Assembly (NCBI RefSeq): GCF_000299035.1
Contig: NZ_JH921517.1
Span: 1 to 51,306, forward strand
Reading direction: 5' to 3'
From: Bacillus bingmayongensis
GTDB lineage: Bacteria; Bacillota; Bacilli; Bacillales; Bacillaceae_G
Length of the DNA stretch: 51,306 bases
The stretch's first letter is position 1. Each line of letters starts with the position of its first letter. The notes under the pieces were generated by a model, which was given only the letters and a program-made list of their open reading frames with translations, did not search any database and was not told where the DNA came from. The translations under genes were made by a program, and so were the position numbers. Below are positions 9,805 to 51,264 of the stretch, piece after piece.

Positions 9805-10075
9805 ATAAAAGTAATGATGAGGACATGAGTTATTTTTTACGATTCTCAGAGAGGGGAGCCTTAGGCTGTGAGCTTCCTAATACGAAAAGATATACTTACC
9901 ACCTCTAAACTTCAAGAGTGAACTGCATGATGCATTGTAATTCTTGGCGGATAAAACCGTTATCAATTTACACGAGCTATAAAATGAGTTTATTTTATTA
10001 TACATTCATTTTATTAGAATAAGGGTGGAACCACGATTTCAACACTCGTCCCTTTGTTAGGGACGGGTGTTTTTT
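9805..10075 (+). promoter_or_regulatory. T-box riboswitch upstream of brnQ, specifier reads ACC (Thr)
   Basis: T-box core GGGTGGAACCACG at 10023-10035, followed by terminator CACTCGTCCC/GGGACGGGTG and six T. The stem I base GAGG (9819-9822) pairs with CCTC (9902-9905), and the upper helix TATTTTTT (9831-9838) pairs with AAAAGATA. This fixes a nine-base 3' specifier loop, TACTTACCA, in which the codon position is ACC (898-900 of the 9,000s) followed by the conserved A. Laid beside the asnS leader, both loop sides have the same length (8 and 9). Threonine is therefore read rather than isoleucine or valine. The T-box call is secure, the specifier fairly so. Confidence 0.9.
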
Positions 10076-49553: not shown

Positions 49554-50060
49554 ATGAGAGCTTTAATTGTAAGCGATAGTCACGGTTCTACGAGAGAATT
49601 ACAGCAATTAAAAGATACATATGAGAGAAATGTAGATATTATGATTCATTGCGGTGATTCAGAACTCACACCAGATCATTCTGATTTACAAGGGTTCCAA
49701 GTAGTAAAAGGAAATTGCGATTTCTATAATGGCTTTGAAGAAGAAATCATTACTGATGTAGATGGATTACGCTTTTTTGCTACGCACGGACATCGGTACA
49801 ATGTTAAAATGAGTTTGCAAACACTTCTATATCGTGCAAAAGAAGTGGAGGCGAATATTGTGTGTTTTGGACATTCTCATATGTTGGGAGCGGAATTTAT
49901 TGATGATATTTTATTCATCAATCCTGGAAGCATTTTATTGCCACGTTCCCGTAAAGAAAAAACATTTACTTTGTTAGAAGTAAATGAAGAAGACATTGAA
50001 ATTCGATTTGAAACATTAGATGGAAAAGTTGTCGCACATAAAACTTTTCAAAGAGGATAA
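49554..50060 (+). CDS. ysnB: Calcineurin-like phosphoesterase, YsnB/YfcE
   Basis: 168-residue metallophosphoesterase with the full metal site: DSHG (7-10 region), HCGDSE near 34, KGNCD near 53, ATHGH near 77 and FGHSH near 103. E. coli YfcE acts on phosphodiesters such as bis-pNPP; the natural substrate is unknown. ATG follows GGGAGAGAGACCG. Last gene of the rph unit; a hairpin at 50050-50077 (AAAGAGGATAA/TTATCCTCTTT) overlaps its stop codon and lacks a T run. Confidence 0.93.
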   Translation: MRALIVSDSHGSTRELQQLKDTYERNVDIMIHCGDSELTPDHSDLQGFQVVKGNCDFYNGFEEEIITDVDGLRFFATHGHRYNVKMSLQTLLYRAKEVEANIVCFGHSHMLGAEFIDDILFINPGSILLPRSRKEKTFTLLEVNEEDIEIRFETLDGKVVAHKTFQRG

Positions 50061-50088
50061 GAAAAATTATCCTCTTTGAAAAAAAGTG

Positions 50089-50117
50089 TTGACTTTATCT
50101 AGACGTACAAATATAAT
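50089..50117 (+). promoter_or_regulatory. Sigma-A promoter of the tRNA genes
   Basis: TTGACT (50089-50094), 17-base spacer, TATAAT (50112-50117), 44 bases before tRNA-Gly. Confidence 0.88.
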
Positions 50118-50161
50118 AAACATTGTCGATAAGACATCAAGCGAAAATAAAAACAAAATAT

Positions 50162-50235
50162 GCGGGTGTAGTTTAGTGGTAAAACAAGAGCCTTCCAAGC
50201 TCTGGTCGAGAGTTCGATTCTCTTCACCCGCTCCA
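50162..50235 (+). tRNA. tRNA-Gly (anticodon UCC)
   Basis: Acceptor GCGGGTG/CACCCGC, D stem GTTT/AAAC, anticodon stem AGAGC/GCTCT with loop CTTCCAA (anticodon TCC at 50194-50196), T stem GAGAG/CTCTT, discriminator T232 of the 50,000s, and an encoded CCA. Confidence 0.97.
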
Positions 50236-50236
50236 T

Positions 50237-50597
50237 GTCCCAGTAGCTCAGCAGGATAGAGCAACGGCCTTCAAGAATAGGAGCCTTTATAGGGAAACAA
50301 GAACCTATAGAGTGGACGACACTATATCGGTGAAGCCTTAACAGTACGGCTGATGGTAATACCGAGGAAACTTACGATCTTCCTTGAGAAGATTAAGGAG
50401 TTTTGAATGATTAAGTAAATCTTAATGGTAAAGACTCTGAAGCATGATGAAAATCATCGTGAGGTTCCGTAGAGACTACACGTGTCGCACCTGAAATGGT
50501 GAAGATATAGTCCAGACTACAAACAGTAAATACTGGTAGCGAAAGCTATGGTGGTAAGCTAAGCCGTCGGTCGGGAGTTCGAATCTCTCCTGGGACG
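50237..50597 (+). tRNA. tRNA-Arg (anticodon UCU), interrupted by an intron
   Basis: 5' exon 50237-50271 and 3' exon 50559-50597. Joined, they give acceptor GTCCCAG/CTGGGAC, D stem GCTC/GAGC, anticodon stem ACGGC/GCCGT with loop CTT+CTAA (anticodon TCT, reads AGA and AGG), T stem GGGAG/CTCTC, discriminator G. CCA is not encoded. It lies one base after the tRNA-Gly CCA, so the two form one transcript. The mature tRNA forms only after splicing. Confidence 0.93.
50272..50558 (+). ncRNA. Group I intron, IC3-like, in the tRNA-Arg anticodon
   Basis: 287 bases between U34 and C35 of the anticodon. P1: exon CTT pairs with guide GAG (50281-50283), giving the U-G pair at the 5' splice site. P2: TATAGG/CCTATA. 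P7: GACTA (in GTAGAGACTACACG) with TAGTC (in GAAGATATAGTCC, the classic S element). P9: TAGC-GAAA-GCTA tetraloop. The last base is G558 of the 50,000s, the expected omega-G. It holds no homing endonuclease frame. Confidence 0.92.
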
Positions 50598-50599
50598 CT

Positions 50600-50636
50600 A
50601 AAAAAACCTTGTTATCTTTTGATAACAAGGTTTTTT
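50600..50636. terminator. Terminator after the tRNA genes
   Basis: AAAAAACCTTGTTATC/GATAACAAGGTTTTTT with a four-base loop; serves both strands. Confidence 0.95.
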
Positions 50637-50649
50637 ATTTGTTTTTAAA

Positions 50650-51264
50650 TTAGTTGTTAATAAATTTTTCAAAGACAAATCCATAATCTTTCACATTATA
50701 GTGTTTTTTCGTATCAACAAGCCAGTTGAAGGCAATTTGATTCATTTCCTTAAATTGCTCTGCTAAATTGAGTTGTGCGTTTGTAATGCGGCTAAATGTG
50801 TTGGATGCCATGTCTAAGCTTTTATGAGCATACTGTAATGTAATATCATTCTCATAGGAGATTTCCTCGATTTTGAGAAGGGCTTTATATAAGTCTTTGA
50901 GCTCTTCAATGTGCTTTTTGTGAACATCAATTGAGTAATACTCATCCCCCATGTGAAATTTAATTTCTACATCTAAATCGATTGTACCAGCAGTTTCTAA
51001 CGCTACATTTCTAATTTGATATTTGCTGTAACTATAACGACGCAATGTACGTTTTTTACTTGCTGCACTCGTTCCGTCTAGATGAATTAATCCTTTGTTT
51101 GTAAAGCAATATTCGTCAGACTTTGATTTGATTAAAAAATAAATTTTTTCTCCATCTTCATGCATGACATAATCATCAGCATCAACTTTATCATAATCTT
51201 TCGGTGTGATTACAGAACCTACGTCGCTTAACCCAAGTACATCAGCAGCTACTTTTTTGAACAT
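50650..51264 (-). CDS. YvbH-like PH-domain protein
   Basis: 204 residues from ATG 51264, with AAAAGGG about nine bases upstream; the in-frame ATG at 51273 touches this site. Residues 35-115 form a beta-rich bacterial PH domain (DGEKIYFLIKSKSDEYCFTN, RRYSYSKYQIRNV, VEIKFHMGDEYYSIDV). The C-terminal third is helical (EELKDLYKALLKIEEISYEN). This matches the YvbH/DUF1696 group, of unknown function. No membrane segment. Convergent with the tRNA genes. Confidence 0.82.
   Translation of the reverse strand: MFKKVAADVLGLSDVGSVITPKDYDKVDADDYVMHEDGEKIYFLIKSKSDEYCFTNKGLIHLDGTSAASKKRTLRRYSYSKYQIRNVALETAGTIDLDVEIKFHMGDEYYSIDVHKKHIEELKDLYKALLKIEEISYENDITLQYAHKSLDMASNTFSRITNAQLNLAEQFKEMNQIAFNWLVDTKKHYNVKDYGFVFEKFINN

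Follow-up and report, generated by a model that had tools for sequence, protein, structure and literature searches.

Split tRNA Gene and Its Surroundings

The stretch analysed here, called the window, comprises 51,306 nucleotides of Bacillus bingmayongensis (contig NZ_JH921517.1, positions 1 to 51,306), and close to its end an uninterrupted tRNA-Gly gene is followed directly by a tRNA-Arg(UCU) gene whose anticodon is split by a group I intron (Table 1). An earlier note on this DNA had described an insert of 287 bases between U34 and C35 at 50237..50597, which turned out to be exact in coordinates, length, and site. The host was likewise correctly named as tRNA-Arg(UCU): ARAGORN in intron mode placed a tRNA-Arg(tct) at 50237-50598, interrupted from gene position 36 by 287 nt, and empty sites in seven related loci agree with this. 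Removal of the 287 nt restores an Arg(tct) tRNA. With an alternative intron setting, ARAGORN read the same stretch as tRNA-Leu, and joining of the window exons also allowed a tRNA-Tyr reading with 822 nt; the shortest intron among the tRNA-Arg(tct) readings was kept. Without intron mode, the program missed the split gene and found only tRNA-Gly there. The promoter consensus scan of 50040-50680 gave three promoter-like sites versus 1.1 expected.

Table 1. Features of the tRNA unit in the window.
Feature	Position	Strand	Evidence and remarks
Promoter-like site TTGACT-17-TATAAT	50089..50117	+	Consensus scan, 11/12; upstream of the tRNA-Gly/tRNA-Arg pair
tRNA-Gly(UCC), uninterrupted	50162..50235	+	ARAGORN; Rfam tRNA 70.8 bits; directly 5' of the split gene
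tRNA-Arg(UCU) exon 1, last base U34	50237..50271	+	ARAGORN intron mode, exon joining; letters as in the intact genes of L204, L207, and L208
Group I intron, 287 nt, helices P1-P9	50272..50558	+	Rfam, folding, covariation, ARAGORN; without homing-endonuclease ORF
P6-side extension, intron nt 112-181	50383..50452	+	Replaced by the endonuclease ORF in L185
tRNA-Arg(UCU) exon 2, C35 to discriminator base	50559..50597	+	ARAGORN intron mode, exon joining; CCA not encoded
Intrinsic terminator-like site at the end of the tRNA unit	50601..50636	+	16-pair stem and T tail

Elsewhere in the window, Rfam found T-box leaders at 343-594 and 9805-10056 (118 and 97 bits). The glutamate racemase of the window differs in 7 of 264 aligned residues from PDB 2gzm, the enzyme of Bacillus anthracis, so that the window probably stems from a chromosome of the Bacillus cereus group.

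The insertion point was confirmed by empty orthologous sites. In the nearest family sampled, 18 of 19 genomes matched the locus with 67-73% identity over the best stretch, and in seven of the eight loci inspected the same tRNA-Gly precedes a tRNA-Arg(UCU) gene without an insert. The intact genes of L204, L207, and L208 are identical in their letters to the joined exons of the window. The eighth locus, L205, gave no match to the search string, but its genome, G767, has an uninterrupted gene nearby. Three loci of another family (L140-L142) bear the intron. Under strict E-value limits, the coding part of the locus had no match above 72% among 396 genomes of an order and 398 of a class. Of 25 Bacillota loci, 18 had a ysnB homologue in the retrieved stretch, so many of the introns occupy one and the same locus.

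Group I Intron Features and Covariation

The evidence supports the insert between U34 and C35 of tRNA-Arg(UCU) as a group I intron. All features that had been listed for it, namely a P1 with a U-G pair, P7, a P9 hairpin with a GNRA cap, and a terminal G, were found; the U-G pair lies at the 5' splice site, the P9 cap is GAAA, and P3 and P8 are present as well. The folding energy of the intron has a z of -5.75, with none of 200 shuffles as low, and a pattern made of the intron 3' end and exon 2 had a single match in the window against an expectation of 0.

The proposed check against the Rfam model Intron_gpI (RF00028) gave a divided answer. The model matches 50261-50530 with an E of 0.00054 on 501 nt, but the score of 23.8 bits does not reach the curated cut-off of 50 bits; at the gathering threshold Rfam thus shows no intron in the window, and the match appears with relaxed thresholds. 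Among 18 related loci with an intron-split tRNA, L085 alone reached the cut-off, and a relative in G007 scored 25.3 bits. The cut-off is a threshold of the database and not a biological criterion.

For covariation, 27 of 126 introns were aligned, hand-picked for a common core type and comprising tRNA-Arg(UCU) introns of Bacillota, Pseudomonadota, Chloroflexota, a Desulfonema, viral contigs, and a phage. The tested structure, built on the window, has 51 pairs in 12 helices, with the two P5 pairs re-registered by hand. Across the 27 sequences 98.2% of the cells were paired, and in the window intron all tested pairs are standard. Two-sided changes were counted in 182 cells versus 43.2 +/- 6.6 in shuffles, and they affected 31 of the 51 pairs (17.3 in shuffles, 6-13 in slid controls) and 10 of the 12 helices, including P2, P3, P4, P7, P8, and two P9 hairpins. 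The P3-P9 core with its P7/P3 pseudoknot was recovered, with two-sided changes in five of six P3 pairs (98.1% paired) and in two of five P7 pairs (100% paired). The P9 helix showed no two-sided change, with 93.5% of its cells paired, and P5a was 93.1% paired. P1 reads C-G, U-A, U-G in all 27 rows; this is conservation and thus neutral as covariation evidence. The terminal G is also present in 27 of 27 rows, a base that the retrieval pattern had demanded.

Cyanobacterial tRNA-Leu(UAA) introns, which belong to subgroup IC3, are inserted after U34, and the site in the window agrees with theirs. The tRNA-Leu(UAA) intron of Agrobacterium phage Atu_ph07 has a gene position equal to that in the window. 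Subgroup IC3, which the earlier note had named, is a possible one for the window intron.

Distribution of the Intron Family

Such an intron had been called unexpected in a Bacillus. This view did not hold, as in Bacillota the intron is widespread, though scattered: close relatives were found in 17 of 396 sampled genomes of one order, in one family in three of 17 genomes, and 24 rows of the tree described below are from Bacillota. Related introns also occur in Pseudomonadota, Bacteroidota, Chloroflexota, and viral contigs. The family was defined by an insert between U34 and C35 of tRNA-Arg(UCU) and an intron ending GGTAAG before CTAA, both of which the window has. The pattern of intron 3' end and exon 2 was found in 18 stretches of viral contigs and in at least 117 of genome contigs. 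Among the matches listed, 126 of 137 pattern sources, including the window and the phage locus L001, have a tRNA-Arg(tct) split after base 34, a count in which pattern and script presupposed that junction; for the window it is independently supported by ARAGORN and the empty sites. The 11 sources without a tRNA comprise nine with the match less than 400 nt from the edge of the stretch, L058, and L044, whose 3' side is not tRNA-like and which looks like a chance match. Several sources permit more than one 5' exon, and the choice of the shortest intron may be wrong for L070.

A tree was built from 116 introns among the matches listed (50 from Pseudomonadota, 24 from Bacillota, 16 from Bacteroidota, 14 viral, 11 others, and the window), with 10 of the 126 left out as untrimmable. 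The window sits among the Bacillota introns, and 23 of the 24 Bacillota rows group with it, together with one Chloroflexota row and one viral contig, in a set with a support of 87 that is not starred. A closer kinship with Exiguobacterium was considered and abandoned: the starred set with seven Exiguobacterium introns in this quick tree is absent from a careful tree built from 40 introns of Bacillota and outgroups, in which Exiguobacterium stands alone (79/89), and holding the window with Exiguobacterium there gave a p-AU of 0.387, which is not rejected. The window intron is of Bacillota type, and no closer kin is claimed. Its end branch is longer than the median in both trees (0.18 versus 0.077 in the tree of 116, 0.11 versus 0.027 in the careful tree), which could reflect relaxed constraint. 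A phage origin was discarded, as 13 of the 14 viral rows fall in other parts of the tree and the remaining one, a contig from IMG/VR, does not differ from a Pullulanibacillus locus.

Homing Endonucleases and Intron History

The window intron has no homing endonuclease, and the only match in it covers 13 residues at an E of 1.6. The comparison comprised 128 introns, that is the 126 among the matches listed plus L183 and L185, of which 46 matched PD-(D/E)XK endonucleases (at least 11 of them in part only), two HNH, and one LAGLIDADG. Pfam assigned PDDEXK_5 (PF11645) to two of the typed proteins, HNH_3 to one, and LAGLIDADG_1, barely above the cut-off, to one. The L185 intron of genome G398 is 633 nt long, has 246 of 286 aligned positions in common with the window intron, and encodes a full-length PDDEXK_5 relative at the place taken in the window by the P6-side extension; the BLAST match of G398 to the window intron accordingly breaks off at query position 146 and resumes at 217. 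The PDDEXK_5-type endonucleases of L185 and L094 are 96% identical, which suggests a recent transfer. In L119, L122, L125, L139, and L183, both ends of the endonuclease are matched and the middle is gone, and these loci are apparent stages of endonuclease loss.

The model of the homing cycle predicts empty sites, endonuclease-bearing introns, remnants, and endonuclease-free introns, and all four states occur at this one site, as predicted. The window copy would then be at a late stage and persist by splicing. It is rather doubtful that the intron instead descended from an old Bacillota ancestor and was lost in most lineages, although the grouping of nearly all Bacillota rows with the window and the recurrent ysnB homologue are in line with such a vertical history. 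The sporadic presence within the family and the order, the endonuclease-bearing relatives, two of them with nearly identical proteins, and the careful tree, in which the nearest kin of the window intron is not fixed, speak against it. The genome of L094 (G009) contains eight Intron_gpI matches, four of them above the Rfam cut-off.

Proposed Splicing and AGA Decoding

It is very probable that an endonuclease-free group I intron lies within the anticodon of a tRNA-Arg(UCU) gene on the chromosome and is spliced out, restoring the tRNA. This explanation is supported by the boundaries, the conserved and covarying core, the intact exons, the scattered occurrence at an orthologous site that is empty elsewhere, and, in most related carriers, the lack of an intact gene by pattern; from these features we infer that the window intron is actually spliced. 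The promoter upstream of tRNA-Gly would drive transcription, the intron would fold around P3-P9 and bind guanosine in P7, and the RNA would be cut after U34, which is paired with G in P1. U34 would then be joined to C35 with release of the intron, and CCA would be added to the 3' end of the tRNA. The intron presumably arrived by homing of an endonuclease-bearing ancestor, with the endonuclease lost later.

The earlier note had also made the decoding of AGA and AGG dependent on splicing. For AGA this is made probable by relatives, whereas dependence of AGG is less certain because tRNA-Arg(CCU) would read AGG as well. An intact tRNA-Arg(UCU) gene was matched by pattern in two of 16 carriers reached through their loci and in none of 17 carriers of the order sample; four genomes are common to both sets, so 27 of 29 carriers are without an intact gene by this pattern, which fixes some letters of the T-loop and D-arm and would therefore let unusual tRNA genes escape. 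By the same pattern, all 19 genomes of the nearest family sampled have an intact gene. In one family it was found in 14 of 17 genomes, that is in all 14 intron-free members, the three misses being the intron carriers; a reversed control pattern also gave one match in this family (G030). Among the Arg codons of 43 window ORFs, chosen mechanically and each at least 150 aa long, AGA accounts for 87 of 529. On the strength of the 27 of 29 carriers, AGA decoding probably hangs on splicing in intron-bearing genomes, and for the window strain the same is assumed from its relatives. Failure to splice would presumably come at a high cost.

Since guanosine is needed and the intron lies in what is usually the sole detectable AGA-reading tRNA gene, splicing might be a regulated step, with falling GTP in the stringent response or at entry into sporulation throttling AGA decoding. 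The intron as such a nutrient-sensitive brake, and not a neutral passenger, is an improbable idea. It is very improbable that the window holds a dead, non-splicing copy, a tRNA pseudogene, with another intact tRNA-Arg(UCU) gene serving the cell: the two carriers with a second match and the long end branch of the window would fit, but the tested pairs are standard, the exons have the letters of intact genes, and none of the carriers in the order sample has an intact gene by pattern. An assembly chimera or an insert other than a group I intron is scarcely conceivable, given that many independent assemblies have like inserts at this site and that a group I structure covaries, even with an Rfam score under the cut-off.

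Introns of this widespread mobile family usually sit in the only tRNA-Arg(UCU) copy that can be detected in a bacterium, and in many bacteria decoding of an essential kind seems to depend on a selfish ribozyme. Plain ARAGORN and the Rfam cut-off are both blind to the window intron, so such genomes can look devoid of tRNA-Arg(UCU). With all intron states at one site, the family lends itself well to the study of the homing life cycle in nature and of the way in which an essential tRNA copes with an intron.

Comparison with Known tRNA Introns

As a kind, the tRNA-Arg(UCU) group I intron is already in print, as a putative one, from giant sulfur bacteria, and the window holds a further member. The available part of PMC4853749 describes tRNA-Arg-TCT genes with putative group I introns in Ca. 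Maribeggiatoa (BOGUAY) and Ca. Thiomargarita nelsonii, and states that secondary structure and type of its tRNA introns were not determined. By that description, they share with the window the host tRNA and the absence from gene annotation. Their hosts are gammaproteobacterial, unlike that of the window, and other Gammaproteobacteria carry U34/C35 introns in tRNA-Arg(UCU). Among the tRNA-Arg(CCU) introns of alphaproteobacteria, BbgpI of Bartonella bacilliformis splices in vivo and self-splices in vitro, and like the window intron it is a group I intron in an arginine tRNA with an unannotated gene, according to the accessible sections of PMC7717549. Its isoacceptor (CCU) differs from that of the window (UCU). 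Introns of this type also occupy another position in the anticodon loop. The tRNA-Leu(UAA) introns of cyanobacteria and plastids, which form part of subgroup IC3, share the insertion after U34 with the window intron, are likewise short and ORF-less, and lie in a different tRNA. The tRNA-fMet intron of Synechocystis is mobile by means of the PD-(D/E)XK homing endonuclease I-Ssp6803I, the endonuclease type also found as PDDEXK_5 inside relatives of the window intron; it differs from the window copy in its tRNA and in having an endonuclease at all.

tRNAscan-SE 2.0 was not designed for group I introns, as its authors state in the available text of PMC8450103. Cyanobacterial inserts of 22-49 nt are termed group I introns in the accessible part of PMC5733544 and are too short for comparison. 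The titles and abstract beginnings found, with subscription papers outside the scope, did not name a tRNA-Arg(UCU) intron in Bacillota, and an earlier report from Bacillus is possible. Tourasse and Kolsto reportedly surveyed introns in the Bacillus cereus group in 2008.

Phage introns observed by 2014 lie in protein-coding genes according to the available part of a review (PMC3984707), and the phage tRNA introns found here depart from that picture. The phage sequence LR756508.1 (L001) has two intron-split tRNA genes side by side, at about 265-530 and 665-917, one a tRNA-Arg(UCU) with a 175-nt intron and the other read as tRNA-Lys(UUU) by eye only; ARAGORN in intron mode at 200-800 nt, a range above the 175-nt intron, returned neither. 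The same mode identified a tRNA-Arg(CCU) with a 213-nt intron in a Microcoleus phage (L002, 413-698) and a phage tRNA-Ile(UAU) with a 210-nt intron in LR745208.1 (L003, 247-533). In Agrobacterium phage Atu_ph07 (MF403008.1; L004, 351-712), it found the tRNA-Leu(UAA) with a 278-nt intron, and a CDS with the annotation hypothetical protein overlaps this gene.
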